Source of the DNA: Alcanivorax sp. | Lineage (GTDB): Bacteria; Pseudomonadota; Gammaproteobacteria; Pseudomonadales; Alcanivoracaceae | Length of the DNA: 64,000 nt | Reading direction: 5' to 3' | Assembly (NCBI RefSeq): GCF_002733835.1 | Contig: NZ_NVWY01000010.1 | Coordinates: 1 to 64,000, forward strand | In this document: positions 5,823-28,200 of the stretch, one piece after another | Layout: every line of letters begins with the position of its first letter | How positions within the stretch are numbered: the stretch's first letter is position 1 | The notes under the pieces: generated by a model | What the model was told of the DNA's origin: nothing | The model's input: the letters and a program-made list of their open reading frames with translations, nothing else | Databases searched by the model: none | Program-made: the position numbers and the translations under genes

Positions 5823-5832
5823 CAGAGGCTCC

Positions 5833-7479
5833 CTAATTCAACGGAAACGCCGTCCAGTTGTCGGCCCATGTCTGCGCGCTGCCCGGGCGCATGGCACCGA
5901 GATAATCCGCTGCTTCATCCCAGAACTCGCCCTGCGGAATCGCCGTGGCGCCATTGCGGGCAGGAGAGCGTGAGGTGGGGGCAAAGTCCGGATGGGAGGT
6001 GCTGGTCGCATCGCGGGTCAGCAGCGGGTCGGTGCCAAACTGGGCGCCCACGGAACGGCTCTGGAAATAACGACGCTCGTCGAAACCGTTATCGTCATCA
6101 TTGTCCATGTTTTCTGCGTCGAAGAACGTCAGGCCACGGCTGCCCACTTTATGCACCATCATACTGTTGAAGGTGAGCTCGCCTTCCTGAATACGGCGCA
6201 CGGTCTCGCCGCCTTTCAGGTCGATGGTTTCCCCGGAGAAACCGTCAATAATCATGTTGTTGAAATGCCCGCCGGTGCCCACCTTTAGGGTCATCGCCCG
6301 GTGGTATTTTTCATGGCTGCGCGGGCTGATCAAGGTCACGTTATACATGACCGGCGCGGAAATGGGTGTGGCATCCGGATTCGCCTTGAGATTATCGCCT
6401 TCAAACGCATTGTCGCCCACATTGGCATGTTGCTGTGCTACCAGAAACTGTACCCGGCCACGCCAGCCCATATCCCAGTCCAGCGAGTCGTCCGCAGCAC
6501 CGGTAATAATGATGTGCTTGAGGTCCACTGTGCCACCGAACACTTCGATACCGTCGTCCAGTGCGCGATGGACCTGCACATTACGAATAATGGTGCTGCT
6601 GCCACAGCCGCCCAGGGTCAGGCCATTCAATTCGTTATTGGCGTAGACCTCGAAGCCGGCGAACTCCACGCGGGTGTATTCCATCACACCGCAGGAGCCG
6701 TCCGCATCGCTGCCGCCAAAGGCTCCCCGGGTATCGCCGTCGGGAATGCCTTCAATATGTGCGTTGGCCACGTTAACCGGTGCGCTGCCGAGCATGACCA
6801 CACCGCCCCAGTCGCCGGCAGTACGGGTGCCTTCCGGCTGGGTGCTGGTAAAGACGATGGGTGCGTTTTCCTGGCCACGGGAGAACAGGGTGGCGTCCCG
6901 GGTAATTACCAGGGCGGAGCCGGGTTTGCCTTCAATGCGTGTGCCCGGTTCGATGGTCAGACTGCCGCCCGCTTCCACATAGACAATGCCATCGAGCACC
7001 CAGGTGGTGCCGGCATGCCAGGTGTTTTGTCCGAACAGGGAGCCCTTGATGGTTTGCTGCCCGGCGATCAACTGGCGCACCGGGTCATAGGCAAAATAGC
7101 CCGCCATGCACAGCACAACGACGGCCAGGGCAACCCAGGCATAGAGGCCTGAAGGTTTACCGCTGGAGGGGTGTCTGCTGCCCAGGGTTTCCGCGATATC
7201 CGGGTTGGTGAGTGGGGTCGGCAGGCTGGCGGTAGGGCGTTTGTGCAGCAATACGCCGTCCCGGTTGGCCTCCTGAAGCTTCAGCCCCAGCGCCCGGATT
7301 TTTCGGTTGTCACTTTGAATGGCGCGGGTAATGATTTCCGCTCGGTAGACCGGGTCGTTCAGCAGCGTGTTGAAATGAACAAATCGCAGACTGCTGTCAT
7401 TTTCCTGATCAAAATTCTGTTTAAGCTGCCACAGCAATTCGACCAATTGTGCACGCGGTGATGAAACTGCATCGATCAT
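5833..7479 (-). CDS. Membrane-anchored parallel beta-helix protein of unknown function
   Basis: I do not recognise a characterised homologue. The chosen start (Met of MIDAVSSPRAQ) follows a GGGGGG run; an in-frame TTG nine codons upstream is possible. The 548-residue product has a polar N-terminal part of about 110 residues with repeats of the type LKQNFDQENDSSLRF and LQSDNRKIRALGLK. One transmembrane segment follows (WVALAVVVLCMAGYFAY, about 113-129), then a long extracytoplasmic domain rich in short beta rungs (VYVEAGGSLTIEPGTRIEG, VVMLGSAPVNVANAHIEGI, STIIRNVQVHRALDDGIEVF). This is the pattern of a right-handed parallel beta-helix, the fold of pectate lyases and many adhesins. No secretion signal other than the TM is seen, giving a cytoplasm-in, periplasm-out topology. 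It stands alone on the minus strand, between REP units on one side and family 2 repeats on the other. Confidence 0.75.
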   Translation of the reverse strand: MIDAVSSPRAQLVELLWQLKQNFDQENDSSLRFVHFNTLLNDPVYRAEIITRAIQSDNRKIRALGLKLQEANRDGVLLHKRPTASLPTPLTNPDIAETLGSRHPSSGKPSGLYAWVALAVVVLCMAGYFAYDPVRQLIAGQQTIKGSLFGQNTWHAGTTWVLDGIVYVEAGGSLTIEPGTRIEGKPGSALVITRDATLFSRGQENAPIVFTSTQPEGTRTAGDWGGVVMLGSAPVNVANAHIEGIPDGDTRGAFGGSDADGSCGVMEYTRVEFAGFEVYANNELNGLTLGGCGSSTIIRNVQVHRALDDGIEVFGGTVDLKHIIITGAADDSLDWDMGWRGRVQFLVAQQHANVGDNAFEGDNLKANPDATPISAPVMYNVTLISPRSHEKYHRAMTLKVGTGGHFNNMIIDGFSGETIDLKGGETVRRIQEGELTFNSMMVHKVGSRGLTFFDAENMDNDDDNGFDERRYFQSRSVGAQFGTDPLLTRDATSTSHPDFAPTSRSPARNGATAIPQGEFWDEAADYLGAMRPGSAQTWADNWTAFPLN

Positions 7480-11408: not shown

Positions 11409-14213
11409 TTGTTCAGGGGAAAATCTATTCGTTACGTTATTTTCTCGTTCTGCTGCTTAATTGCTGTAGCCGCTGCCGCGGCACAGGGCGAGAGTGACTC
11501 CAAAACGGCGGCTTTTTATTACGGCCCGGATATTCCATGGTCGTCATTGGCGTCGTTTGATTTTCCTGTGGTGGAGCCGGATCAGGCCGACAGTTTGCCG
11601 CAGGCCTATCGGGACGAAACCTTCTATGCCTATGTGAGCCTGGGCGAGGTATTGTCCCAGCGGCATTATTTTACTGGCCTGGACAAGGCCTGGTTGCTGG
11701 GTAAAAACCCGGACTGGGGCTCGTTTATTCTTGATCAATCTTCCCCGGCGCTGCGCAGTTATTTTATCGATGCCGTGATCGAACCGCTCTGGGCCAAGGG
11801 CTACCGTGGCTTTTTCCTCGACACCCTGGACAGCTATCAGCTGGTTGCCAAAGACGAGGCCGCGCGTGAGCGTCAACGACAGGGGCTGGCGGCGTTAATT
11901 AATGCCATCGCCGAGCGCCATCCCCAGGCGGGGTTTATTTTTAATCGTGGTTTCGAACTGATGCCGCTGGTGCAGGCCCGGGTGGATGCGGTGGCGGCCG
12001 AGTCCCTCTACCAGCGGTGGTTGCCGGACAAGGACCAGTTTACCGCTGTCCCGGAGGAAGACAGGGCCTGGCTGCTGGGTCAGTTTGAACAGGTCCGTGA
12101 GCGTTATGGCGTCAGCACTATCGCCATTGATTATGCGCCTCCTGCGTCCCGTGATCAGGCGCGCAAGATCGCCAGCGACATTGCTCAACACAACGTCATT
12201 CCCTGGGTCACCAACCCGGCGCTGGACATGATGGGCGTGGGGGAGCTGGAAATTCTGCCCCGCCAGGTGCTGCTGGTGTACGGCGGCAGCGAGGAGCGCA
12301 CCTGGGAATTGACCGATGCGGTGCGCTACGGGCTGATGCCCCTGCAGTTTCAGGGCCTGGTGCCGGATATTCGTGCGGTGGATGCGCCCATGCCGGCGGG
12401 CACGCTGGCCGGCCGTTATGCGGGCATTGTTATCTGGCTGGAAGATTCGGAAGTCGCCAGCGATGGCTTTGAAGACTGGCTGGCACAACAGAAAGAGGCC
12501 GGCGTGCCCATCCTGATGCTGGGTTATCCCGCCATTGACCCGCAGGGCCCCCATGCCCGGGACTTCGGTTTTGAGTCGCGCAACACGCCGGCAAGCCCGC
12601 CACAGATTGTCTCTCAGCACCCGGACATGGGGTTTGAAGTTACGTTACCGAAACTGCTGGAGTTGTCTGCGCCGGTGGATAACGACAACGCCACCCCCTG
12701 GTTAAAATTACGTAGTGAAAATCAGACCTTTACTCCGGTGGCGGTAACGCCCTGGGGTGGCTACGCCTTTCAGCCTTTCCTGATTCGTGCCGCACTACCA
12801 GGGGTGAAGACCGGCGCCGGGGATCGCTGGGTGCTTAATCCGCTCACCTTCACTCGTGACGCCCTGCAATTGCCGGCCATGCCGATCCCGGACGTGACCA
12901 CGGAAAACGGGCGGCGATTGTTGTTTGCGCACATGGACGGCGATGGCTTCCCCAGCCTGGCGGAAGTGGAAGGGTACCGGGGGAAAGCGGATGCCCTGGT
13001 GCTGCTGGATGAAATTCTCGAGAAGTTTGATATCCCCACCACCATTTCCGTGATTGAAGGGGAAGTGTCCAGTGAGGGGCTGTACCCCAAAATGGCCCCC
13101 GAACTGCAGCGTATTGCCCGCGCCATGTTTGCCCTGCCCCATGTGGAAGCGGCAACGCACACTTACTCGCATCCCTTTTTCTGGTACGACGCCCAGGCAA
13201 ACCCCGGGGAACTGTACGGGCCGGAAGGTCAGTTGCGGTTACCGATACAGGATTACCGCATGGACCCGGTCCGTGAAGTGGTGGGCTCGGCAAACTATAT
13301 CGAACGCGAGCTGTTGCCGCCGGGCAAGAAGACCCGCATGGTGCTGTGGAGTGGTGACACCATTCCCACACCGGAAGCGCTGAAAGCGGCCCGTGAAGGC
13401 GGCCTGTTGAACATGAACGGCAGCGATACGACCATCACCAACAGCCAGCCCACCTGGACGCTGGTGAAGGGCATTGGTATCCCGAAAGGGGATGAATACC
13501 AGGTCTACGCGCCCAACCAGAATGAAAATATTTATACCAATGAGTGGACCGGGCCTTTCTATGGCTTTGAGCGGGTTATCGAAACCTTCAAGCTGACCGA
13601 AACGCCCTATCGTTTTAAACCGGTGGATATTTACTACCACACCTATATCGCCAGCAAGAATGCATCACTGGAGTCCCTGCGACGGGTATATCAATGGGCC
13701 AGTGAGCAGCCGTATTTTCCGCTGTTTGCATCGGACTACAGTCGCAAGGTGCTGGATTTCAACGATATGGTGATTGGCCGCCGTGGTGACGAATGGTGGA
13801 TTCAGGGCAACGGTCAGCTACGTACGTTACGGCTGCCGGACGGGCTGGCGTTTCCCGCGTTGGCACACAGCAGCGGTGTGGCCGGCTACCGTGAAGACAA
13901 GCCCGGGCGCTATGTGCATTTGAGCGGTGCCAACGCCCATTGGCGAGGTCAATCATCCAGCGACGAGGACAGCAGGGTGCCGTATTTACAGCAGGCGAAT
14001 GGCCGGCTGACGGCCTTTTCCCGCGACGGACGAAACTTGCGTTTTTCCCTGGAAGCGATGGCGCCACTGGATTTTACCCTGGGCAATGCCAGGGGCTGCA
14101 CCTTGTCTCATCAGGGAACAACACTCAAACCTGCCGGCAGGGAAGGCCGGTTATATCACTACAGGAGTGCGGCGCGTGGGCTCAATGAGCTACGGCTACA
14201 ATGTCCGCACTGA
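11409..14213 (+). CDS. pelA: PelA: periplasmic Pel polysaccharide deacetylase/hydrolase
   Basis: A 934-residue protein (P. aeruginosa PelA is about 950) that trims and partially deacetylates the Pel polymer in the periplasm. After a signal peptide (VIFSFCCLIAVAAAAA, about 9-24) comes a GH114-type alpha-barrel hydrolase domain (about 30-280; YYGPDIPWSSL, FFLDTLDSY). A middle flavodoxin/GATase-like region (about 290-480) follows. The carbohydrate esterase domain has LFAHMDGDGFPS near 499 with the metal-binding Asp, and ATHTYSHPF near 581 with the two metal His residues. A beta-sandwich-like tail ends the protein. No ATG start exists in frame: TTG at 11409 lacks a Shine-Dalgarno, while AGGGGA at 11415-11420 points to ATT at 11427. 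First gene of pelA-G, overlapping the next gene by 38 bp. Confidence 0.95.
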   Translation: MFRGKSIRYVIFSFCCLIAVAAAAAQGESDSKTAAFYYGPDIPWSSLASFDFPVVEPDQADSLPQAYRDETFYAYVSLGEVLSQRHYFTGLDKAWLLGKNPDWGSFILDQSSPALRSYFIDAVIEPLWAKGYRGFFLDTLDSYQLVAKDEAARERQRQGLAALINAIAERHPQAGFIFNRGFELMPLVQARVDAVAAESLYQRWLPDKDQFTAVPEEDRAWLLGQFEQVRERYGVSTIAIDYAPPASRDQARKIASDIAQHNVIPWVTNPALDMMGVGELEILPRQVLLVYGGSEERTWELTDAVRYGLMPLQFQGLVPDIRAVDAPMPAGTLAGRYAGIVIWLEDSEVASDGFEDWLAQQKEAGVPILMLGYPAIDPQGPHARDFGFESRNTPASPPQIVSQHPDMGFEVTLPKLLELSAPVDNDNATPWLKLRSENQTFTPVAVTPWGGYAFQPFLIRAALPGVKTGAGDRWVLNPLTFTRDALQLPAMPIPDVTTENGRRLLFAHMDGDGFPSLAEVEGYRGKADALVLLDEILEKFDIPTTISVIEGEVSSEGLYPKMAPELQRIARAMFALPHVEAATHTYSHPFFWYDAQANPGELYGPEGQLRLPIQDYRMDPVREVVGSANYIERELLPPGKKTRMVLWSGDTIPTPEALKAAREGGLLNMNGSDTTITNSQPTWTLVKGIGIPKGDEYQVYAPNQNENIYTNEWTGPFYGFERVIETFKLTETPYRFKPVDIYYHTYIASKNASLESLRRVYQWASEQPYFPLFASDYSRKVLDFNDMVIGRRGDEWWIQGNGQLRTLRLPDGLAFPALAHSSGVAGYREDKPGRYVHLSGANAHWRGQSSSDEDSRVPYLQQANGRLTAFSRDGRNLRFSLEAMAPLDFTLGNARGCTLSHQGTTLKPAGREGRLYHYRSAARGLNELRLQCPH

Positions 14214-15054
14214 ACGGCTGCGGGTTGTTGGGCTACCGGAATTATTCGCCTTTCTGATTCTTATCGGCGTGGTGTGCTGGATGCTGTTCCCGCGGGACTT
14301 GTCCTCATCCCTGCGTACTGCGCGTCTGGACGCGGTGACATTCAGCTATATGCAAGCCTGGCTGAAAGCCAAACCGGATGACCATGAGCTACGTTTGTTG
14401 ATGGCACGGGAGTTGATTCTGCAAGGTAACTTTGTGGCGGCGGATGACCAGCTGCAAATCGTGGCTGCTGATACCAATGGCCGCTATGACACCCAGATCG
14501 CCTGGCTGGAATTGCGCCGGGATTTTACCCGTTTGATGGCCATAGACGCCGACAATCGCCGTGGCACCATGCTTGAACATGAAACCCTGACCCGTTTGCG
14601 CGCGATTGACTGGGCCGCCCTGAACAGTGAAAAACGCATCCGCTTCGCTGACATGGCCCTGGCCATGGGTAGCGTGGACCTGGCGGTGCAAGCCTATCGC
14701 CGGTTGGCGGATAGTGCGGCCAACCCCAGCCAGTGGCACGTCAAGGCGGCAAAAGTGCTGCTCGCCCACGGGCGCTATTCCGACTCTGCGGATGCCTACA
14801 TTGCGGCCATGGACGCACGCGGAAATTACACGGTGCGCAAGCGCTATTTCCTGGCTGCACTCAACGCGCTGCAAGCGGGCAGCCTGCATGACAAGGCGCT
14901 GCGTTTAGCTCAGGCCCGTGAGCGCGCTTTCTATCACGACAAGGCCGTGTTGTATCGCTTGATGACCCTGGCCCAGGCGGGCGGCAACATGCCGGTGGCC
15001 GAGCACTACGCGGTGTTGTTGCTAAGCTTGCCGTCCGTGGAGGGTAGCCGATGA
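14176..15054 (+). CDS. pelB: N-terminal half of a split PelB: inner-membrane-anchored TPR protein
   Basis: A 292-residue protein that corresponds to the first part of P. aeruginosa PelB. It has a short cytoplasmic segment, one transmembrane helix (ELFAFLILIGVVCWMLF, about 22-38) and then TPR-like helix pairs (DDHELRLLMARELILQGNFVAADDQL and SVDLAVQAYRRLADSA are examples, both within 70-200). The GTG start at 14176 follows GGAG with 8-bp spacing; ATG at 14185 is the alternative. Its TGA overlaps the ATG of the second half (ATGA). In P. aeruginosa PelB is one chain of about 1190 residues; here 292 plus 931 residues make up the same total. The downstream start has its own strong ribosome site and signal peptide, so this looks like a real split rather than a frameshift. 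It would act as a periplasmic scaffold bringing PelA to the secretion porin. Confidence 0.85.
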   Translation: MGSMSYGYNVRTERLRVVGLPELFAFLILIGVVCWMLFPRDLSSSLRTARLDAVTFSYMQAWLKAKPDDHELRLLMARELILQGNFVAADDQLQIVAADTNGRYDTQIAWLELRRDFTRLMAIDADNRRGTMLEHETLTRLRAIDWAALNSEKRIRFADMALAMGSVDLAVQAYRRLADSAANPSQWHVKAAKVLLAHGRYSDSADAYIAAMDARGNYTVRKRYFLAALNALQAGSLHDKALRLAQARERAFYHDKAVLYRLMTLAQAGGNMPVAEHYAVLLLSLPSVEGSR

Positions 15055-17846
15055 CCCGCCGCCCGTGGATACGACAATGGCTCCATGCGGCGATCTTCCC
15101 CCTCGCACTGTTGTCTGCCGTGCCGCTTGCCCATGCGGACACGCCGGCGCCCTATGTGGAGCGTTATTACGACCGCAGTTACCAGGTGTTCGTGGGGTCG
15201 GGGAACCTGGTTCGGGCCAGGCAGGTGGCTGAAAACGCCCTTTACTGGCGCCCGGATGATGAACGCTGGTGGCGCCGATTGGCGGAGATATCCCGTTGGC
15301 AGGGGGATCCGGAAACCTCGCTGAAAGCCTGGCGACAGGTGGCCTTGCGCAGTAATGATCCGGAGGCCTGGAAGCAGGTGTTGGTGTTGGCACCGCTGAC
15401 TTACAGCAACCGCCTCGCGCTGCGGGCCAACAAGGCGCTGTTGAGCGCCTCTCCCTACGATGCCGACATCATTGCCACCATCAGCCAGCAGTATGAGCTG
15501 CTGGGCCAACCGGATGAGGGCCTGCGCTTCTTCGCAGACTGGCGCCGGCGTTATCCCAGCAAGGCCGCATTGCGCGAAATGCAGCGGCTCGCCCTGAACC
15601 AGGGTGAGGATGTGCGGGCTGCGCGCTACTCCCGCGAATACATGGACCGCTTTGGCCCGGAGGAAGCCATGGCGGCCCAGGCGGCAGACCTGTTCTGGCT
15701 GGATGGCCAGCGCGAAAAAGCCTTGCAGGACCTGGACCGTGATGCCAGTGAATTGGCCTATTCGCCGGCACTGTCCCGGCGTATTGCGGTGATGGCCGCA
15801 GAGTTGGGCGAGTGGGATCTGGCGCTGGATCGTTACCAGCAATTGGTGGATCACGACGACGACCAGATTACCGATTTGTACCAATACATCACGCTGGCCC
15901 GTTATTACCGCCCGGATCGGGTGGCATCACTGATGGGTCGGGCCTGGCAGAAGAACCGCAATCCGCAATTTGCCCTGGGGGCGCTCTACCAGCTGAACGA
16001 TCGCCGCGATGATGAGGCCATTGATGCTTTCCTGGCAGGGTTGAGTGAAGAGCAGTGGCAAACGCTGATGCAGACTCCGGAATTTCTGCGCTTCTACGCC
16101 AACCTGCAATTGCGTCGCGGTGACACGCAAGCCGCGCAGCACTGGCTGCAGAAAGCGTTAGCTTTGAACGCCAATGACCGGGAAACCCGGATCAGCTGGA
16201 TGTGGCTACTGGTTGCCACCGGCCAGGACCGGGAGCTGCGACAAGCTCTGGTCACCTGGGAAGATGTGATCCGCAGTGACCGGCGCTACTGGGAAGTGCT
16301 GTCGGCGTCACACATGGCATTGGGCAATGCGGAACAGGCCCTGCGCTATGAAACCGAATTGCTGAAAACCGCACCCCAGAACTGGGAGCGCCAGTGGTAT
16401 TACGCCCAGGCGTTGATTGCCGCCGGTCGAAACGGGCAGGCCTGGCCGGTGCTGCGGCACCTCAAGGAACAATTGCCCTTGACGGTCGAGCCGCAAAAGC
16501 AGGCCATTTACAGGGACATGCAATTGACGCTGAGTCTGTTGTTTGACGATGGCGATACCTCACTGAAGCTGGCCCGGGCACAAACGCAAGGCATGGACAG
16601 TGATCCAGTGGCCCGGGCCGAGTGGTTGGCGCAATGGGCGATCGGGCAGTCAGAGCCCTTGCTGGCCCAGAGTTGGTATTTGCGTAAACAGCAGGCGCAA
16701 GGGGCGCTCAAAGCCGGCTCGGCACTGGCTTTTGCCCTGGTGCAGGATGATCTGGACGCGGTGGCGCAGATCCGTGAGCAGTATCAGGGCCAGCTTACCC
16801 TGTCCGAGCAGCTGGAAGCCCAGGTGCGGCTGGATGAGCCGCGCCGTGCTGCCAGTACCTTCATGGCCATTCAGGCCGGGTCGCCGGAACTGGCCGGCAG
16901 CAATAACCTGCAGGAAAGCCTGCTATTGCCCACGGCCCGCTCGTCACAGTTTCATATTGAACAGCGCCGTTTGGGGGCGCTGGATATTCAGGATCTGCAG
17001 TTTGTGCAGTACCAGCCGCTCAGTGATTTCACCCAGCTGTCTGTGAAAGCCCGCCAGCGCAATTTCAGCAGCAATGATGACGAACTGCTGCAAATCAGTG
17101 ATGACGAGCAGCGGCTGTCGATGGCGCTGGCTTACCAGCGCGAACGGTTCCGCAGCCGCCTGGAGCTGGGCCAGCGCAACCTGTTGGGCAACAGCGAAAC
17201 CATGGCGGATCTGGAGCTGGGCGCGAACTGGACGCGGTACTGGTCCGGTAGCCTGAATTACCAATGGCGAATGCCGGCGGATGAGTCGTCCCTGCTGATT
17301 CTCGGTGCGTCGCGTACCGGTAGCCAGTGGTTGCTGAACTGGACGCCATCCTCTACCTGGCAAAGCAGCGTGGATTGGGCCAACTATGACTATCAGGATC
17401 TCAATGACAGTGATCTGGGCAGCGGCAGCATCATTAATGCCCAGAGTACCTGGCGCCCCTGGTTGTCGCGCTTCTCTCCCGGGGTGCGGGTGAGGCATAC
17501 CCAGGCGGACTTTACCGCCGGCAACGACAGCATGGCCGAAGTACGTGCCTTGCTGCCGCCCGGCGCCCAGACGTTACCGCTGCCGCAGGACTATCACGAA
17601 TCGGAAGTGGTGTTCCTGCTGGGCCAGCCGGATGTGCATATTCGTCCGCACCGTTTGCAGGGCTGGGCAGAAATTGGTTACAGCCATAACAGCCTCTCGG
17701 GAGCGGGTTTTACCGGCCGCTTCGGTGTGGAGGGGCCGCTGATCGGTCGGGATGAATGGAAGCTGTATGCAGAACAACAGCTCAATAGCGGGGGTAGTGG
17801 TGAAGACAGCTACCGCTTCGGGCTGCAATATAGAGTTTATTATTAG
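15051..17846 (+). CDS. pelB: C-terminal half of a split PelB: TPR-porin for Pel export
   Basis: A 931-residue protein with a clear Sec signal peptide (WLHAAIFPLALLSAVPLAHA, cleaved about residue 30), a long array of TPR repeats (about 40-610) and a C-terminal outer-membrane beta-barrel (about 640-931) ending in an aromatic strand (YRFGLQYRVYY). This is the part of PelB that forms the Pel export pore and binds PelA. The ATG is preceded by GGAGGG with 6-bp spacing and overlaps the stop of the N-terminal half. Having its own signal peptide, it is delivered to the outer membrane independently of the inner-membrane TPR half, unlike the single-chain PelB of P. aeruginosa. Next gene pelC starts 11 bp downstream. 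Confidence 0.92.
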   Translation: MTRRPWIRQWLHAAIFPLALLSAVPLAHADTPAPYVERYYDRSYQVFVGSGNLVRARQVAENALYWRPDDERWWRRLAEISRWQGDPETSLKAWRQVALRSNDPEAWKQVLVLAPLTYSNRLALRANKALLSASPYDADIIATISQQYELLGQPDEGLRFFADWRRRYPSKAALREMQRLALNQGEDVRAARYSREYMDRFGPEEAMAAQAADLFWLDGQREKALQDLDRDASELAYSPALSRRIAVMAAELGEWDLALDRYQQLVDHDDDQITDLYQYITLARYYRPDRVASLMGRAWQKNRNPQFALGALYQLNDRRDDEAIDAFLAGLSEEQWQTLMQTPEFLRFYANLQLRRGDTQAAQHWLQKALALNANDRETRISWMWLLVATGQDRELRQALVTWEDVIRSDRRYWEVLSASHMALGNAEQALRYETELLKTAPQNWERQWYYAQALIAAGRNGQAWPVLRHLKEQLPLTVEPQKQAIYRDMQLTLSLLFDDGDTSLKLARAQTQGMDSDPVARAEWLAQWAIGQSEPLLAQSWYLRKQQAQGALKAGSALAFALVQDDLDAVAQIREQYQGQLTLSEQLEAQVRLDEPRRAASTFMAIQAGSPELAGSNNLQESLLLPTARSSQFHIEQRRLGALDIQDLQFVQYQPLSDFTQLSVKARQRNFSSNDDELLQISDDEQRLSMALAYQRERFRSRLELGQRNLLGNSETMADLELGANWTRYWSGSLNYQWRMPADESSLLILGASRTGSQWLLNWTPSSTWQSSVDWANYDYQDLNDSDLGSGSIINAQSTWRPWLSRFSPGVRVRHTQADFTAGNDSMAEVRALLPPGAQTLPLPQDYHESEVVFLLGQPDVHIRPHRLQGWAEIGYSHNSLSGAGFTGRFGVEGPLIGRDEWKLYAEQQLNSGGSGEDSYRFGLQYRVYY

Positions 17847-17857
17847 GAGTGAATCCA

Positions 17858-18382
17858 ATGAGACTGAGCATTGTGCTACTGGGAACTTTGCTGTTAGCCA
17901 CCGTGCTGGCCGGGTGTACCCATGTTCGTAGCAGCCAGGATGTGGAACTGTCCGGCGAGGGCACCTGGCTGGTGTTGCCGATGGTCAACCGCACTGCCAC
18001 TCCCCAGGCGGGGTTGCGGGCGGCAGCCATTGTCGAATCCGTGCTGTATCGCCATGGCGTGAATAACGTAACCCGCTACCCGGAAAGCGATAATGAAGGG
18101 GTGCTGTTTGAAGGCACCTCGGCGGCCAACCGCAAGAACATGAATCAGTGGGTCGCCTCGCAATCGGCCCAATATGTGGTGAGCGGGGTAGTACACGAAT
18201 GGCGCTATAAAACCGGTGTTGATGGTGAGCCCGCGGTGGGGGTAATGATCGAAATCCGTGAATTGCCGGAAGGGCGTATCGTCTATAGCGGCACGGGCTC
18301 ACGGGCCGGCTGGGCACGCCAGTCGCTCAGCGAAACCGGGCAGAAAGTCATCGATAAATTGCTCGCCCCGGTGGTGCAGTAA
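17858..18382 (+). CDS. pelC: PelC: outer-membrane lipoprotein of the Pel exporter
   Basis: A 174-residue lipoprotein with a type II signal peptide ending in the lipobox LAGC. The residue after Cys is Thr, so it should be sorted to the outer membrane. In P. aeruginosa PelC forms a dodecameric ring under the PelB barrel that funnels the cationic polymer; the Trp in SRAGWARQS near residue 149 fits the conserved aromatic of that ring. The ATG was preferred to an upstream GTG because AGGAG (17845-17849) sits 8 bp from it. Its TAA overlaps the pelD ATG by one base. Confidence 0.93.
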   Translation: MRLSIVLLGTLLLATVLAGCTHVRSSQDVELSGEGTWLVLPMVNRTATPQAGLRAAAIVESVLYRHGVNNVTRYPESDNEGVLFEGTSAANRKNMNQWVASQSAQYVVSGVVHEWRYKTGVDGEPAVGVMIEIRELPEGRIVYSGTGSRAGWARQSLSETGQKVIDKLLAPVVQ

Positions 18383-19716
18383 TGCTTGAGCGCATCAGTA
18401 ACGGCAAGCTGGCGGGGCTATTCATGCCCCAGCCAAGAGTGCTGTGGTCGCTGTGCGAAGCAGTGATTCTGATGGCGCTGGCCGTTGTCATGGGGTTGTG
18501 GCTGCGCGAGGAGGATCCGCTGACACTCATCGGGACCTTCCGTTGGGTATTGCTGGTGCCGATACTACTGGCGTTGCGTTACGGTAGCTTGCTCGGGGTG
18601 TTCGGCATGCTGTGTCTGGTGGCCAGCTGGTTTTTGCTCACGTCTTTGGGTTTCTATTCAGGCATGGACTTTCCGGAAACCACCATGCTTGGTGGTTTCG
18701 TGATTATTCTTATTTGCGGTGAGTTTGCGGATATGTGGCGCGTCAAACTGATGCGCGCAGACAGCGCCGCCAGCTATGCACTGGAGCGTTTGCAGAATTT
18801 GACGCAGCGGTATGTGCTGTTGCGTCTTTCCCATGACCGGTTGGAAGAAAACCTGCTGATCAAGCCCTATACCGTGCGTGATGCGTTGGTGCGATTGCGC
18901 GATCTGACCCTGGATGAAAGTGACAGGGTTCGGCTTCCTGCAGCGGACGATCTGATTCACATGCTGGCGGAATATTGCCAGCTGCAGCGTGCCGCGCTTT
19001 ATCGGGTGGTGGACGGCCATATCGACGATGAGCCCGCGGCCCAACTGGGTGAGATGCGCCCGCTGGAGCGCAACAATGCTTTGCTCCAGCATGCACTGGA
19101 AAACCAGCTGCTTGCCCATGTGCAGCAGCATGACCACGACAGTAACTACCATGGTCAGTATCTGGTTGCGGCCCCGATTATCAACAGTGGTGGCGCCTTG
19201 ATCGGGGTGATGGTGATTGAGCGTTTGCCGTTCCTGTCCATCAATTATGAAAACCTGCAGCTGTTGTCTGTGCTGCTTAACTTCTATGCGGATGTGGTGC
19301 ATGCCGGCGATGAAGTCGATGACATGTTGGACCGCTGGCCCACCATGCCATTCCGGATTGCCAGTGAGTTGGCTGCGCTGGTACGTCTGCGTGAGGGCGG
19401 CCGGGTGGATACCTCCCTCACCTTGTTTGTCGCGGATGACAGCGAACAGGCAGGGCTGATTCTTGATGCGCTGGCCCGCGGCCTGCGCAGCCTGGATCTT
19501 GCCTGGTGGCTGAATGACAACGTCTTGATGATCATGATGCCGATGACCGGGGAATCCAGTCTGGAAGGCTTTGTGCTGCGTACCGAGAAATGGCTGGCCG
19601 ATGAGTATGCGTTCATGAGCCTGCGCCAGGCCGGGGTGCAGTTCTATTACCGCCACCTGGATCAGCGTGAGGCAATGGAGCAGGTGGCTGAGCTACTGGA
19701 GGCGGCGGGTGTCTAG
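18382..19716 (+). CDS. pelD: PelD: inner-membrane c-di-GMP receptor of Pel synthesis
   Basis: A 444-residue protein with four N-terminal transmembrane helices (about 24-115), a helical linker, a GAF domain (about 160-310) and a degenerate GGDEF domain (about 325-440) with no GGDEF catalytic signature. R369-S-L-D372 matches the RxxD c-di-GMP inhibitory-site motif at almost the same position as R367/D370 in P. aeruginosa PelD. The Gln that follows two residues later in that species is Ala here. PelD should therefore switch on PelF-driven polymerisation when c-di-GMP is bound, in a complex with PelE, PelF and PelG. Overlaps pelE by 8 bp. Confidence 0.94.
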   Translation: MLERISNGKLAGLFMPQPRVLWSLCEAVILMALAVVMGLWLREEDPLTLIGTFRWVLLVPILLALRYGSLLGVFGMLCLVASWFLLTSLGFYSGMDFPETTMLGGFVIILICGEFADMWRVKLMRADSAASYALERLQNLTQRYVLLRLSHDRLEENLLIKPYTVRDALVRLRDLTLDESDRVRLPAADDLIHMLAEYCQLQRAALYRVVDGHIDDEPAAQLGEMRPLERNNALLQHALENQLLAHVQQHDHDSNYHGQYLVAAPIINSGGALIGVMVIERLPFLSINYENLQLLSVLLNFYADVVHAGDEVDDMLDRWPTMPFRIASELAALVRLREGGRVDTSLTLFVADDSEQAGLILDALARGLRSLDLAWWLNDNVLMIMMPMTGESSLEGFVLRTEKWLADEYAFMSLRQAGVQFYYRHLDQREAMEQVAELLEAAGV

Positions 19717-20719
19717 TCTCAAGCTGCTTATCTATGCGATCAGTGCGGAGATCGCCTCCCTGCTGTTGCTGTTGAGCAGACAGGCTGACCTGTCGCTGTT
19801 CGTGCTGTACCTGTTCTCTCACGGGTTGGCGTCGGCGCTGTTGTCGTTTGTTGCCTGGGGATTGCTGCCGGCACGTTTCAGGACGCCAAAAATTCTGTCC
19901 TGGGTGCTGATTTTTTCTTTTGCGTTTTTTATCCCGGCGGTGGGGCTGATCACCATCCTGGGTGGGGTGGCATTGGGTATCTGGCTACCGGCGCTGTTTC
20001 GGGACAAACCCTTCGGATTGGTGGAGCAGCCTTATTTTTCTCCGGTACAGGTCAACAGCGCAGCGGGCTTTCGGCAAATCGATCTAAAAAACCTGCTGAC
20101 TACATCCCGGGCGCCGAATGCCTTGCGGGTGCAGGGGATGCTGGTGCTCAAGGATATGCCGGCCAGGGTAACCGGCAATTTGTTGCGCCATACCCTGGGC
20201 GATTCCTTTGAAGACTTGCGGCTACTGGCTTACGGGATTCTCGATCAGAAAGAAAAGGAGATTACCCGGGATATCGAGCGGGCCCTGAATCTGCTGGAGC
20301 GGGCCACGGAGTCGCGCCGCTACCGTTTGGCCCGTCGTCTTTGTGAACTGTATTGGGAGCTGAACTATCAGGACCTGGTGCGCGGGGATATCCGTACCCT
20401 GACGCTGGAACGGGCCGCATTCTACGCCGACATGGGCTTGATGGAAGCGCCAGAGGATGCCGGTTTGTGGTTGCTGCGCGGGCGCATTCAGTTAGGCCAG
20501 GGAGAAATTGGTGAAGCGCATCAGTCCATGACCTTTGCCCGTCGTCTGGGGTTGTCTGCAGCGAAAGTGAATCCCTGGCTTGCGGAGATCGCCCTGCAGC
20601 GCCGGCAAATACCGCTGGTACGGTTGCTGATGCGTGAAATTACCGATGACAGCCAGTTCACCCAACTCAATAAATCCGTTGAATTCTGGAGGGGCTATGA
20701 GCCTGCCACGGGCGGATAG
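19709..20719 (+). CDS. pelE: PelE: inner-membrane TPR protein of the Pel synthase complex
   Basis: A 336-residue protein (P. aeruginosa PelE about 330) with three hydrophobic segments near the N-terminus (about 5-20, 25-45, 60-90) and a soluble helical/TPR region (about 170-330; GLWLLRGRIQLGQGEIGEAHQSM). It is thought to bridge PelD, PelF and PelG. The GTG start at 19709 was chosen because GGAGG lies 6 bp upstream; this start is inside the end of pelD. The 3' end overlaps the pelF start, keeping the operon tightly coupled. Confidence 0.92.
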   Translation: MSSLKLLIYAISAEIASLLLLLSRQADLSLFVLYLFSHGLASALLSFVAWGLLPARFRTPKILSWVLIFSFAFFIPAVGLITILGGVALGIWLPALFRDKPFGLVEQPYFSPVQVNSAAGFRQIDLKNLLTTSRAPNALRVQGMLVLKDMPARVTGNLLRHTLGDSFEDLRLLAYGILDQKEKEITRDIERALNLLERATESRRYRLARRLCELYWELNYQDLVRGDIRTLTLERAAFYADMGLMEAPEDAGLWLLRGRIQLGQGEIGEAHQSMTFARRLGLSAAKVNPWLAEIALQRRQIPLVRLLMREITDDSQFTQLNKSVEFWRGYEPATGG

Positions 20720-22265
20720 CGCCGATATCTGTTTATTACTGGAAGGCACTTTTCCCTATGTGAGTGGCGGCGTGTCCAGTTGGGTAAACCAGATTATTCG
20801 TGGTTTTCCCGAATATACCTTTGCCTGCTGTTTTGTGGGCAGCCGCCCGGAAGACTACGGCGAGATGAAATATGAATTGCCGGATAACGTGGTGCACCTG
20901 GAAGTGCATTACCTGCACAATTTTCAGCGGGGGCCACAAAAGCGTTCCTTAAAGGGCAATCGCAAGGCCTATGCCGACCTGCGGCGTTTCCATGAAATGG
21001 TGAAAGAGGGCGTTCACTCCAGAGAACGCAGCGAACTGTTCAGCCGCATCGTCACGCACCTGGGGGAAGGGGAGGATTATTCCGAAGAATCGTTCCTGCA
21101 CAGCCGGGCCAGTTGGGATTACATTGCTGAAGCGTATCGCGAGTTCAGCCGGGATCCGTCCTTTGTGGATTATTTCTGGACTGTTCGCATCATGCATTCG
21201 CCCATCTGGGTGCTCAACGATATTGCCAACAACCTGCTACCGGCAAAGATGTACCACACCATTTCCACCGGTTATGCGGGCTTTCTGGGTGCCATGCTCA
21301 AGCGCCGCACCGGCAAGCCGTTGTTGCTGTCCGAGCATGGTATTTATACCAAGGAGCGCAAAATCGACTTGTTCCAGAGCGAATGGATCAGCGATAACCG
21401 CGGCCTGGTGGAAAAGAACAACGCGGAGATGGCCTATTTCCGCGAAAAATGGGTGAATTTTTTCACCGAGCTGGGGCGCGAGTGCTACCAGGCATCGGAC
21501 CGGATCGTGGCGCTTTATGAGCGCAACCGGGAGCGGCAAATGGAAGACGGCGCGCCGCCAGAGCGCACCCTGAATATCCCCAATGGCATTGATCTACCGC
21601 GCATGCAGAAAGTGCGGGCGGCTCGGGGTGAATCGGTTCCCCCGGTGGCCTGTCTGATTGGCAGGGTTGTGCCCATCAAGGATGTGAAAACGTTTCTGCG
21701 TGCCATGCGGACCCTGGTCAATGTATTGCCAGAGGCGGAAGGCTGGATTGCCGGCCCGGAAGACGAAGACAAGGAATACGCCAGGGAGTGCCACGGCCTG
21801 GTGGCCAGTCTGGGGCTGGAAAAAAATGTGAAGTTTCTGGGGTTCCAGAAAATTGATGAGCTGCTACCCAAAGTGGGGGTGATCGTGCTCAGTTCCATCA
21901 GTGAGGCGTTACCGCTGGTGTTGCTGGAAGGCTTTGCCGCCGGGGTGCCGGCCGTTTCCACGGATGTGGGGTCTTGCCGTCAGCTGATTGAAGGCCTGGG
22001 CGAAGCCGATCGGGCCTATGGAAAAGCCGGCGAAGTGGTGGGCATTGCCGACCCGGAAGCGTTGGGCAATGCGGTTGCCTCGCTATTGAAAGATAGGGAT
22101 GCCTGGCACCAGGCGCAGCAGGCAGGCATTCGCCGGGTGGAGAACCTGTACACCCAGGACATGATGTTTGGCGCCTACCGTGACCTGTACCAGTCGCTGG
22201 TGAGGGACACGGACGCAGCCAGCCCGCAAGAAAGCACCGACCGCTACCGGGAGGGACGCCACTAA
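20697..22265 (+). CDS. pelF: PelF: cytoplasmic glycosyltransferase (Pel polymerase)
   Basis: A 522-residue GT4-like retaining glycosyltransferase that polymerises Pel from UDP-sugars. The N-terminal acceptor domain starts with LLLEGTFPYVSGGVSSWVNQ, and the C-terminal donor domain has NIPNGIDLPRM, CLIGRVVPIKDVKTFLRAM and the E-x7-E motif in SEALPLVLLEGFAAGVP (about 399-415). The start ATG at 20697 has GGAGGGG just upstream; a longer ORF upstream would lie inside pelE. The stop overlaps pelG by one base (TAATG). Confidence 0.95.
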   Translation: MSLPRADSADICLLLEGTFPYVSGGVSSWVNQIIRGFPEYTFACCFVGSRPEDYGEMKYELPDNVVHLEVHYLHNFQRGPQKRSLKGNRKAYADLRRFHEMVKEGVHSRERSELFSRIVTHLGEGEDYSEESFLHSRASWDYIAEAYREFSRDPSFVDYFWTVRIMHSPIWVLNDIANNLLPAKMYHTISTGYAGFLGAMLKRRTGKPLLLSEHGIYTKERKIDLFQSEWISDNRGLVEKNNAEMAYFREKWVNFFTELGRECYQASDRIVALYERNRERQMEDGAPPERTLNIPNGIDLPRMQKVRAARGESVPPVACLIGRVVPIKDVKTFLRAMRTLVNVLPEAEGWIAGPEDEDKEYARECHGLVASLGLEKNVKFLGFQKIDELLPKVGVIVLSSISEALPLVLLEGFAAGVPAVSTDVGSCRQLIEGLGEADRAYGKAGEVVGIADPEALGNAVASLLKDRDAWHQAQQAGIRRVENLYTQDMMFGAYRDLYQSLVRDTDAASPQESTDRYREGRH

Positions 22266-23635
22266 TGGCCGGCATCGGTTTTGAACTGCGTCGACTACTG
22301 CGCAAGGACACCCTGCTTGGTCTGATCCGGGCCTATGCCTATGCCGGTGTAATCAGTTCCGGCCCCTGGGTGTTATCGATTATCGGTATTCTGATTATCG
22401 GTATCTTCAGCCTGGGCATGGTGGTGCCGGATGCCTCGGTAACACAGTTCCAGATTACCGTGACCTATTTGATTGCCATCAGCCTGATTCTCACCGGCAT
22501 TGTGCAGCTGGCCTTTACCCGCTTCTGTGCGGACCGTTCGTTTGAAAACCGTGAAGACCTGATTCTGCCCAATTTTGGTGGCGTTACGGTGCTGGTGACG
22601 GTTATCTCCGGTCTGCTGGCGTTGCCGGCGGCCATGTTCCTGTTTCCCGGGCAGAGTGTGCTGTTCCGGGTGCTGCTGATCGCCTGTTTTGTGGTGTTGA
22701 GCAATATCTGGATTGCCACCGTTTTTCTCTCCGGCATGAAGCAGTACAAGGCCATTTTGTTGCTCTACGCCCTGGGCTACACCATTACGGTGCTGGGTGC
22801 CCTGATGTTGCGGTTTCTGGACCTGGATGGCCTGCTGCTGGGGTTTCTGCTGGGGCAGGTGACCCTGCTGGCAGGGATGCTGGTACTGATTGTGCGAGGC
22901 TACCCGGCCGAGAGCATCGTCTCGTTCGACATGTTCGGTAAAAAATACCTGTACCCCAGCCTGATGCTGGTGGGCTTTTTCTATAATGCCGGGGTGTGGG
23001 CGGACAAGGCCATGTTCTGGTTTTACGACGGCACCGGTAGCGATGTGATCGGGCCGCTGCGGGCCTCGTTGATCTACGATATTCCCGTGTTCCTGTCCTA
23101 CCTGTCACTGATCCCGGGCATGGCCGTATTTCTGGTGCGCATGGAGACCGATTTTGTAGAGTACTACTCCAACTTCTACGATGCGGTCCGTGAGGGCGGA
23201 TCACTGTCCTATATCGAAGATATGCGCAACCAGATGGTGTTCGTCATTCGCCAGGGCATCTTCCAGATTCTCAAGATTCAGGCGATCTCGGCGCTGGTGA
23301 TCATGGTGGCCGGCGCGCAGATCTTTAACGCTTTGGGCATTTCGGAGCTGTATCTGCCGTTGCTCAAGGTGCAACTGATCGCCACCGCCCTGCAGGTGGT
23401 CTTCCTCGCCATCATCAACGTGTTCTGTTATCTGGATCAGCGCCGCATGCTGGTGCTGCTGACCGGACTGTTCTTTGTGCTTAACGTGATTTTTACCGGC
23501 ATCAGCCTGTACCTGGGGCCACAGTTCTTCGGCTTCGGTTTCCTGTTGGCGTTGGCGGTGTGTGTGCTGCTTGGCCTGTGGCTGGTGAGCCGCAAAATGG
23601 CGGAACTGGAATACTCCACCTTTATGCTTAATTGA
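22265..23635 (+). CDS. pelG: PelG: inner-membrane Pel transporter (MOP superfamily)
   Basis: A 456-residue polytopic protein of about 12 transmembrane helices, the same length as P. aeruginosa PelG and belonging to the polysaccharide flippase superfamily. The N-terminus GIGFELRRLLRKDTLLGLIRAYAYAGVISSGPW (split over residues 3-36) is the recognisable start of this family, and the charged loop VRMETDFVEYYSNFYDAVREGG near 290 is typical. It would move the growing polymer across the inner membrane with PelD, PelE and PelF. Last gene of the operon; a REP island follows 36 bp after the stop. Confidence 0.95.
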   Translation: MAGIGFELRRLLRKDTLLGLIRAYAYAGVISSGPWVLSIIGILIIGIFSLGMVVPDASVTQFQITVTYLIAISLILTGIVQLAFTRFCADRSFENREDLILPNFGGVTVLVTVISGLLALPAAMFLFPGQSVLFRVLLIACFVVLSNIWIATVFLSGMKQYKAILLLYALGYTITVLGALMLRFLDLDGLLLGFLLGQVTLLAGMLVLIVRGYPAESIVSFDMFGKKYLYPSLMLVGFFYNAGVWADKAMFWFYDGTGSDVIGPLRASLIYDIPVFLSYLSLIPGMAVFLVRMETDFVEYYSNFYDAVREGGSLSYIEDMRNQMVFVIRQGIFQILKIQAISALVIMVAGAQIFNALGISELYLPLLKVQLIATALQVVFLAIINVFCYLDQRRMLVLLTGLFFVLNVIFTGISLYLGPQFFGFGFLLALAVCVLLGLWLVSRKMAELEYSTFMLN

Positions 23636-25120: not shown

Positions 25121-25261
25121 CGGATTCTTCCTTGAAACGGGGTTTATGGCTTGCGTCGCTCTTGCCGCCAGATTCAGCATGGAATGGTGACTGTTGCCGC
25201 ACGACTGTCCCATGTCTGTGGTATGTTTCCCACGTTAATCATTTTGCCGTGGAAGAGTCTC

Positions 25262-28200
25262 ATGCCAAGTCGGGGTTTGTCGTTTTTTCGTCTCTTGATG
25301 TTGTGGACTGTGCTGTTGATCGCAGCCTGTGATGATGCGGGTGATGCCAGCCGCAACGAGGAGGGCAACAGCGTTGCCGCTGAGCAAAACGACGCTGACC
25401 AGCAGGTATCTCCTCTGGATGATCGTTGGCAGACTCACCTGGCGGCCCTGCCGGCAGGCACCATCAGCGCCCGTGCGCCTTTGGTGGTGCGCTTTAATCA
25501 TCCAGTAGCCACCCCTGATCAACTGGACAAGCCTCAATCCGGGGTGGTGCGGCTGTTACCGGAAAGGGCGGTGACGGCGGTGTTTACCGCCGAAGACCGG
25601 CTGGAAATTCGCCCCTCCGAACCTCTGCCCGGCGGAGAATCGCTGACGCTGGTGTTGTACGCCCAGGGGCTTGCCAACGTGGACGATGCCTTGAGCCCTG
25701 CCGAATTTTCCCTGCAGGTGCTGCGCCAGCAGATGAGCCTGACGGTGGCGTCTCTGTTGCCCACGGACGATGGCAGCGAGATGGTATTGCGCGGCAGCCT
25801 GGAGACCCGCGATCTGTCGGACCAGGCTCACGTAGAGGCGGTACTGGATGCCCGCCAGAACGACAAGACCCTGACGATTAACTGGCAGCATGACAGTGCC
25901 GGCCTGCGCCATGATTTTTCGGTGAGCGGGATTGTGCGCGAACAGCAGGCCAGTGATGTATCACTGCGCTGGGATGCGGCGCCCCTTGGCGTGAACAACC
26001 AGGGCAACCGTCACTACACGGTGCCGGCACTGAAAAACTTCGCGGTAACCAATGTGCGGGCGGTCAGTTATCCCAAACCCCACGTCCAGGTGAATTTTTC
26101 CGAGGCCCTGAAAGCGACCCAGAACCTGAAAGGGCTGGTCACGTTGAATGGCAAGGCGCCCCGCGTGGAAGTGGATGGCAGCACCCTGCGCATTTATCCG
26201 CAGGATGAGCTGGAAGACGATGTGAAGCTGGTGATTGACGGCAGCCTGCGCTCCGCCAGCCAGGGTCGTCTGACGGACAAGCTGGAAAAAACCGTTACCC
26301 TGATGACCAGCAAGCCAGGGGTGCGTTTTGTCGGCGACGGCACCATCCTGCCCGATGGCAAACAACTCAGCGTACCGTTTGAAGCGGTGGGCGTGCACTC
26401 GGTGAAAGTGCAGGCGTTCCGGGTATTCGATGACAACATCGGCCGGTATCTGCAAGGCAGCGAACTGAATGAAGCCGACATGGATTCACGCAGCGGCCGC
26501 TACCTGTGGCAGAAAACCCTGACCCTGCCGGGTAATAGTGATGGCTGGCAACGCTACCAGCTGGACCTTACCGAGCTGATGGCCAAGCATCCCAATGGTC
26601 TGGTGCATCTCTCCCTGATCATCGACGGCGACGATATCAGCTACAGTTGCCCCGATGGTGCCCTGAAGAAAAAAACCACCTTGCCGGACAGCTACGAAGG
26701 CCCAGGGCAGGATCAGGATCGTTCTGATGTTTATCAGAATTATTATGCCGACGCGGGCTACCTGAGCTGGTACGAAAAAGACAATCCCTGCTCCGACAGT
26801 TACTACCAGTACAACGACCTGGCCAGCAGTACCCGCGCTTTCCTGGCCTCCAACCTGGGTCTGATCGCCAAACGCGGCCAAAACGATACCCTGCTGGTGG
26901 TGGCCACCGAGCTGGACAGCAACACCCCCGCCGAAGACGTGGTGCTCAAGGCCTATAACTACCAGCTGCAGCAGGTCGGCATGGGGCTTACCGATGCCGA
27001 GGGCATGGCCAGCCTCTCACTGGACGGATCCGCGTATTACCTGGAAGCGGTCAAGGACCGGGACAACGGCTACCTGAAACTGGCCCGCAACCGGGCCCTG
27101 CCCACCAACCAGTTCAACACCGGTGGCCAGCAAGTACGCGATGGACTGAAAGGCTTCTTCTACGGCGAGCGGGACGTGTGGCGCCCCGGTGATGACATTC
27201 ACCTGACCTTTATTCTGGAAGACCAGGACAACACCATCCCCGACGGCCACCCACTGATGCTGGACTGGTTTGATCCCCGTGGTAACAAGGTGAAGAGCTA
27301 TACCCTGGACAAGCCGGTGGGCGATTTTTATGCCTTCACACTACACACAGAAGAGGACGCGCCCACCGGCAACTGGCGTGCGGTGGCCCGGCTGGGTCAG
27401 CGTTATTTTGATACCCCGATCCGGGTGGAAGCGATCAAGCCCAACCGGCTGAAAATCGAGCTGGATCTGCCGGAAACGCTCTACACCAACCAAGCCACCG
27501 ACATCGGGCTATTTACCCAGTGGCTCAACGGTGCCACCGCCGCCAATTTGAAAGCCGATATGAAAGTGCGGGTGAGTGCGCGCACCACCCGTTTCGACGG
27601 CTACGACGCTTATCACTTCGACGATCCCACCCGCAAGCTCAGCAGTGAGCCGTTCACCGCCTTTGATGGCAACGTGGACGGGCAGGGCAACGCCACCGTG
27701 CCGCTCACGGTGAATGTGGAACAGACCCCGGGCATGCTGCGCGCCACCCTGACCACCCGCGTGTTTGAAAACAGCGGGGATTACAGTACCCAGATTCGCA
27801 GCGTGCCGGTGTACCCGTTCAAGCATTGGGTGGGCATGCGCATTCCCGAAGGCAGCGGCTGGGGCGGGGCGCTGTCCCGTGAAGGCCGGCATGCCATCGA
27901 CCTGATCAGCCTGGACAGCGACGGCAAGCCCGACGCCAGCCGGCCGCTGGATATCAGTGTCTACCAGATTGATTGGCGCTGGTGGTGGGACCGGGCCGGA
28001 GATGACCTGAGCAACTACATTAGTGACCCCAACACCAAACGCGTAGCCGATGCACAGATCACCACCGACGCAGAAGGCCGCGCCCAGTGGAATCTGAACG
28101 GCGAAGACTACGATTGGGGTCGCCATCTGATTCGCATTTGTGACCGGCAAAGCGACCACTGCACCGCACAAACCGTGTACCTGGGCTGGAGCTGGGAGCA

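Follow-up and report, generated by a model that had tools for sequence, protein, structure and literature searches.

The window, a 64,000-nucleotide stretch of an Alcanivorax sp. contig (NZ_NVWY01000010.1, assembly GCF_002733835.1), carries a pelABCDEFG operon that the ORF list and Pfam show to be ordinary apart from pelB, which is laid out as two ORFs, here called pelB1 and pelB2. The genes and features of this region are the following.

11409-14213, + strand: pelA, hydrolase/deacetylase (GH114 Pfam match, position); 29-nt overlap with the ATG start of pelB1
14176-15054, + strand: pelB1, predicted inner-membrane-anchored TPR protein (sequence; alignment to residues 10-287 of the fused PelB L115; AF2)
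14233-14286, + strand: predicted PelB1 transmembrane helix, residues 17-34 counted from ATG 14185 (AF2 and hydropathy; no AxA site downstream)
14332-15027, + strand: predicted PelB1 TPR helices, 13 long helices, residues 50-281 (AF2)
15039-15044, + strand: GGAGGG, pelB2 ribosome-binding site, 6 nt before the ATG (sequence)
15051-15054, + strand: ATGA stop/start overlap of pelB1 and pelB2 (sequence), suggesting translational coupling
15051-17846, + strand: pelB2, 931 aa, TPR7-19, alpha-rich region and outer-membrane barrel (Pfam, profile alignment, AF2, structure match)
15051-15137, + strand: PelB2 signal peptide, predicted cleavage AHA↓D after residue 29, unmatched in fused PelB
15159-16469, + strand: predicted PelB2 TPR helices, residues 37-473 (AF2)
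16491-16934, + strand: predicted PelB2 alpha-rich region, residues 481-628 (AF2)
16941-17840, + strand: PelB2 16-stranded barrel, residues 631-930 (PF24604 1.7e-55, AF2)
17849-18382, + strand: pelC, lipoprotein-like, LAGC by eye (conserved pel order; no Pfam match)
18382-19716, + strand: pelD (PF16963 4.2e-33)
19667-20719, + strand: pelE (position, conservation)
20634-22265, + strand: pelF (NF038011 8.8e-249)
22265-23635, + strand: pelG (PF16933 5.6e-157)

The pelB1 frame, which the mechanical ORF list opens at 14086 (322 aa) and a TGA closes at 15054, can start at GTG 14176 (292 aa) or at ATG 14185 (289 aa), of which the ATG is the likelier. The ATGA overlap and the well-spaced GGAGGG, both remarked on in the first-pass annotation, are present at the positions listed, and the Sec signal peptide it assigned to the second ORF is predicted as well: by eye and by a simple rule, the PelB2 N-terminus MTRRPWIRQWLHAAIFPLALLSAVPLAHA↓DT is of the Sec type. 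Hydropathy and simple rules give PelB1 a strong transmembrane segment with no AxA site after it, and we saw no lipobox in PelB1 by eye. Pfam finds the PF24604 barrel and TPRs on PelB2 and, on PelB1, no more than a sub-threshold TPR, and a search of the source genome returned a single PelB2 match. Downstream of the operon, positions 25151-30844 hold a 1897-aa ORF with a GCIEQ motif, by which it looks like a putative bacterial alpha-2-macroglobulin.

To place the break on single-chain PelB, we used a profile alignment of 19 Alcanivoracaceae rows against 22 fused PelB proteins. PelB1 residues 8-286 align to residues 10-287 of L115 and PelB2 residues 32-931 to 283-1198, and the two proteins tile fused PelB end to end without a gap. 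PelB2 residues 1-31 have no counterpart in fused PelB, so the signal peptide does not correspond to ordinary internal PelB sequence, and by this alignment it is an addition relative to the single chain. Residue n of L115 is residue n-1 of P. aeruginosa PelB, and the break, whose position the first-pass annotation had proposed to map, falls at P. aeruginosa residues ~282-286. Since PDB 5WFT holds TPRs 8-11 (PMC12022489) and covers residues 320-436, the break lies, by our own count, between TPR6 and TPR7. From the alignment, PelB1 comprises a predicted inner-membrane helix and about TPR1-6, and PelB2 comprises TPR7-19, the PelA-binding stretch and the barrel. Binding of PelA by P. aeruginosa PelB has been placed at TPR9-14 (PMC12022489), so by homology the PelA-binding TPRs should all sit on PelB2. 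An AF3 kink reported for P. aeruginosa PelB (PMC12022489) is not the break site, as the kink comes after TPR8 and the break after TPR6.

The predicted folds agree with this division. The PelB1 model (AF2, mean pLDDT 92.4) has a transmembrane helix at 17-34 and TPR helices to 281, and its fold search gave general TPR matches only; the PelB2 model (mean pLDDT 89.9, residues 1-30 of low confidence) has helices at 37-628 followed by 16 strands at 631-930. The C-terminal part of the PelB2 model (residues 553-931) matches the solved PelB 9h80_M with a VIA-align Z of 34.7 (rmsd 3.0, 371 aligned), and the next matches are BcsC (6tzk, 9b8h) and the polysaccharide outer-membrane secretin 4y25, which we take to be PgaA. 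The pair thus has the C-terminal PelB barrel by both profile and structure, a long TPR array ahead of it by profile alignment of both parts and AF2, the pelABCDEFG context and, by prediction from hydropathy and AF2, an uncleaved N-terminal inner-membrane helix, carried on PelB1. It is not a single polypeptide, and we therefore class it as a two-gene variant of PelB, homologous along its whole length. The first-pass annotation had expected a topology different from the model system, with a TPR scaffold tethered to the inner membrane and a porin sorted on its own; sequence and AF2 predictions support this, with the amendment that by homology the PelA-binding TPRs belong to PelB2 and not to the inner-membrane piece.

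We then asked how far the arrangement extends among relatives. A search of 46 Alcanivoracaceae genomes with PF24604 found the barrel in 23, with stop-to-stop frames all of 923-1017 aa, and pelB1 lies directly upstream of pelB2 in 24 of the 25 pel loci of these 23 genomes, the window included. The lone exception is a scrambled second copy in one genome (L095 in G006); none of the close relatives has a fused ORF. Between the window and its nearest relative L091, dN is 0.026 and dS 0.445 for PelB1 (dN/dS ~0.06), and 0.015 and 0.191 for PelB2 (~0.08); dN was far under dS in 11 other pairs tried as well. Both pelB1 and pelB2 are under purifying selection, and they are almost certainly functional genes of one system. 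A sequencing error or a recent frameshift in one strain only is so improbable that we reject it as the cause of the split, because both genes are constrained and occur together in 24 of 25 family loci; the overlapping starts and the signal peptides speak against it too. The same conservation, with the low dN/dS, excludes a chance arrangement, and the earlier reading of a functional gene split holds. The second pel region of G006 (G006:C1:48597-63505) lacks pelB1; its PelB2 begins in the scrambled stretch, which by eye resembles the large ORF that follows the pel operon of the window, and further broken PelB-like pieces (L021-L023) lie between the two pel copies.

The split is real in this genome and is not peculiar to it. 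A search of the order (390 genomes) gave 13 PelB outside the family in pel operons, with frames of 1067-1339 aa; a 14th match above the cut-off (L128 in G074, 34.2 bits) was excluded for want of adjoining pel genes, and six matches below the cut-off (frames of 424-842 aa) are outside these counts. We classified 133 barrel-bearing loci drawn from family, order, class and phylum searches and from named genomes: 49 are split at the TPR6/7 joint, 71 are fused and 13 are neither by our rule, a split-to-fused ratio that is not a prevalence because the named-genome set is the top 80 out of 576 candidates, ordered by how similar each was to the PelF of a split operon. The set holds duplicate records among the split (L110=L185, L113=L213) and the fused loci (L148=L221). 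Ten of the 80 named-genome loci had no barrel match and were left out (L159, L171, L179, L188, L195, L202, L216, L225, L227, L233); most are on short contigs or near contig ends, and L202 (Nautiliaceae) is long and has pelA after pelG. The 13 loci in neither class are the scrambled L095, L125 (no PelB1 match), L133 (split with a frame break), L136 (three genes), L141, L151, L166, L200, L209 and L217 (cut by contig ends), and L150, L162 and L207 (short or broken frames). The PelB2 frame of L133 (G678) is broken once, at about 5823-6355. L143, with its long stop-to-stop frame, was taken as fused and proved to be split on classification.

Split members include Rhodanobacteraceae, Geobacteraceae, Comamonadaceae (Rhodoferax, Curvibacter) and one Moraxellaceae MAG. 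Their two genes overlap by 4 nt in 43 of 49 loci and by 1 nt in three, the rest being at 11, 17 and -16; in L106 and L107 the 4-nt overlap is via TTG, with an ATG one codon on. The PelB2 N-terminus is hydrophobic in all 49 (best 10-mer hydropathy at least 1.72, and at least 1.9 in 45), and none of the 71 fused PelB reaches 1.9 in the 40 residues before the joint (highest 1.85), so that the two ranges overlap slightly. A hydrophobic 19-mer (1.67-2.88) lies near the N-terminus of every one of the 49 PelB1. Among the 71 fused proteins, the joint is spanned by no more than 3 residues in 23 and by a linker of 8-135 residues in 48. With tight, linker and split forms all at one joint, this point can be welded, tethered or left open. 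In Burkholderiales, fused PelB has linkers of 51-135 residues, often Ala/Pro-rich, exactly at the TPR6/7 joint (L144-L149, L184, L186, L189-L193, L199, L203, L205, L211, L215, L221, L223, L226). The motif LDGPRG is common to Cupriavidus-type linkers, and Paraburkholderia sp. C35 has two different pel operons (L199, L215), both with linker-type fused PelB.

In G694 and its relatives (family f217), PelB is spread over three genes. A search of the order of G694 matched 19 of 31 genomes and gave 18 full-barrel frames, 17 of 364-652 aa and one of 987. Of 11 such loci inspected, nine (L250-L252, L254-L258 and L260) consist of three ORFs with overlaps of 4 or 8 nt, L259 has two ORFs and L253 is cut by a contig end; G694's own locus, L136 (4373-8418), has three as well. 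The three products are a PelB1-like protein, a TPR protein without porin and an alpha-rich barrel protein, the second and third with signal-peptide-like starts by eye. On P. aeruginosa PelB, the match of the middle chain ends at ~722-739 and that of the last chain begins at ~739-796. With TPR19 ending at 726 (PMC12022489), these alignments put the second break near the TPR19 end.

To follow the history of the split, we built trees on PelA, PelF and PelG and not on PelB. On the PelA+F+G tree of 126 loci, with L133 and L136 entered as split, the three states split, linker and tight need 5 changes, and split versus fused needs 4. Under a mixture model on 23 chosen rows, grouping every split row in a single clade is rejected (lnL 277 lower, AU p 5.3e-5, an optimistic value as the group was defined after viewing a tree), as is a clade of W, L108, L109, L232 and L176 without L126 (lnL 182 lower, p 3.3e-6, 23 rows). 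These rejections mean that the split was gained or lost more than once. L126 is fused with 3 residues at the joint and nested among split relatives, and is best read as a re-fusion. When a PelF+PelG tree is rooted on outgroups from Alphaproteobacteria and Fusobacteria, the tight form comes out at the base, and the split and linker forms, together with L126, group in a single crown clade (84 rows, SH-aLRT 100). Of the 116 loci that had been assigned a state, 104 entered this tree, after near-duplicate and incomplete ones had been set aside by choice; its root depends on long outgroup branches and on a simple model. A tight-basal polarity is neither proved nor refuted by the mixture-model trees, which are unrooted. 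Signal-peptide fossils in linkers, as proof that fused PelB came from split, are unsupported: 2 of 47 linkers scanned (of 48) gave p<=0.05, about what chance gives, and both (L201, L204) are from Gallionellaceae. Five alphaproteobacterial and fusobacterial pelF/pelG regions (L235, L236, L237, L239, L240) gave no PelB barrel match at E 1e-3. In Cereibacter and Sulfitobacter a polysaccharide export family protein adjoins pelF/pelG.

How the two chains might work together is suggested in part by the joint itself. In the 19 Alcanivoracaceae rows, mature PelB2 residues 32-71 stand at the 99.5th percentile of helical-region conservation and PelB1 residues 261-282 at the 82nd, against the 62nd and 41st for the equivalent stretches of 13 tight fused PelB. 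This conservation could also reflect another partner, and the most conserved part of PelB1 is residues 41-80, near the membrane, and not the joint end. The GRAVY of the last PelB1 helix ranges from 1.15 to -0.90 within the family, so a 'sticky end' is not general. In five PelB2 of a Comamonadaceae clade (L198, L206, L218, L220, L231) the TPR match begins as late as residue 113-177, and in all of these except L218, where Pfam found no SPOR, a SPOR-like domain occupies residues ~28-88 between the signal peptide and the first TPR (L198 at 3.6e-6, above the cut-off; L206, L220 and L231 at 0.0025-0.003, below it). Such an extension is lacking in L194 and L172, members of this clade whose TPR matches begin at 53 and 34. 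SPOR domains bind peptidoglycan, a hint that the joint is close to the cell wall. A single rigid joint is disfavored by the long PelB2 extensions and by the linkers that many fused PelB carry.

We consider it likely that the Alcanivorax genes encode an export scaffold in two chains, separable at the TPR6/7 joint and made as two translationally coupled proteins. An uncleaved N-terminal helix would anchor PelB1 in the inner membrane, with about TPR1-6 held in the periplasm as the first part to meet the polymer leaving PelDEFG. PelB2, secreted via its own signal peptide, would be seated in the outer membrane and carry TPR7-19, the PelA-binding stretch, the alpha-rich portal and the barrel within the PelC ring, where with PelA and PelC it would finish and export the polymer. 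The TPR arrays of PelB1 and PelB2 would meet end to end at the former TPR6/7 joint, a docking that we favor modestly, with the tight fusion of L126 as a hint. The coupling, localization, cleavage, docking and function of both proteins in this scheme are what we infer.

Other readings of the pair differ in how they treat the joint. The strongest is neutral gene fission, in which the two chains would assemble into a fixed complex identical to that of fused PelB, without any change in function; the fold, the gene order and the partners are indeed shared, and this reading is a serious contender that falls somewhat short of even chances in our judgment, as the split and fused states occupy large stable groups on the 126-row tree instead of being scattered, and a separate signal peptide must be maintained. 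Alternatively, PelB1 could be an inner-membrane synthase subunit alongside PelD, PelE and PelG that hands over the polymer without docking. Its own anchor and gene, its conservation peak near the membrane, and the linkers of up to 135 residues and SPOR-containing extensions, which indicate that tight contact is not always needed, would suit such a role; with joint ends conserved above average in the family and L126 tightly fused inside a split clade, we regard it as unlikely. Very unlikely is cleavage of the PelB1 helix, or retention of that of PelB2, leaving two soluble or two inner-membrane proteins: 48 of 49 PelB1 have no AxA after the transmembrane segment (L139, with ARA, is the exception), and PelB2 has its AHA↓D site. 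Beyond the two-chain scaffold that we prefer, a speculative and rather doubtful generalization is that Pel export works not through a fixed bridge across both membranes but through a coupling that is jointed behind TPR6, perhaps close to the peptidoglycan, whose inner- and outer-membrane halves assemble separately and couple or uncouple, and which lineages weld (Pseudomonas type), tether (Burkholderiales and relatives), leave open (Alcanivoracaceae, Rhodanobacter, Geobacter) or cut into three.

In comparison with P. aeruginosa PelB (PDB 9H80, 5WFT; PMC12141448, PMC12022489), the operon, TPR array, alpha-rich region, barrel and N-terminal inner-membrane helix are the same, whereas one chain of 1193 residues is replaced in Alcanivorax by two, with the signal peptide added at the break. 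A 2025 cryo-EM study suggests for single-chain PelB a possible role as a physical bridge between the two membranes (PMC12141448). Many pel operons, this one included, have no single chain able to form such a bridge; PelB need not be one continuous bridge, as the same joint is cut or loosened in many bacteria, and the question becomes directly testable in non-pathogenic marine bacteria. The natural cuts delimit the scaffold modules TPR1-6, TPR7-19 and alpha-rich region plus barrel. That pelB can occupy more than one gene was already noted as 'pelB fission' for aquatic thermophilic species (PMC7112194, Fig 5iii legend); the available portions of that article are without species, site, signal peptide or extent, whereas here the joint is mapped and followed over 133 loci. 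In the portions of open-licence PMC literature covered, we found nothing on the Alcanivoracaceae split or where it falls, on the linkers, or on PelB in three genes. BcsC and PgaA are likewise TPR-porins of synthase systems, with TPR and porin on one chain (PMC9384988) where Alcanivorax PelB has two. The alginate proteins AlgK and AlgE do place TPR scaffold and porin on separate chains (PMC9384988), but AlgK is an outer-membrane lipoprotein, whereas PelB1, which has a predicted transmembrane helix and in which we saw no lipobox by eye, appears to be held in the inner membrane, and most TPRs stay on PelB2; PelB1 would act partly like an AlgK-type scaffold and is not one. Closer to AlgK/AlgE than the two-gene form is the three-gene PelB of f217, a family that is probably the Acidithiobacillaceae. 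In L136, pelG is followed by an ORF that by eye looks like an epimerase, a feature also described in Acidithiobacillus thiooxidans and A. caldus (PMC5852609); A. thiooxidans cells null for pelD were seen by SEM to overproduce a filamentous structure (PMC5852609).
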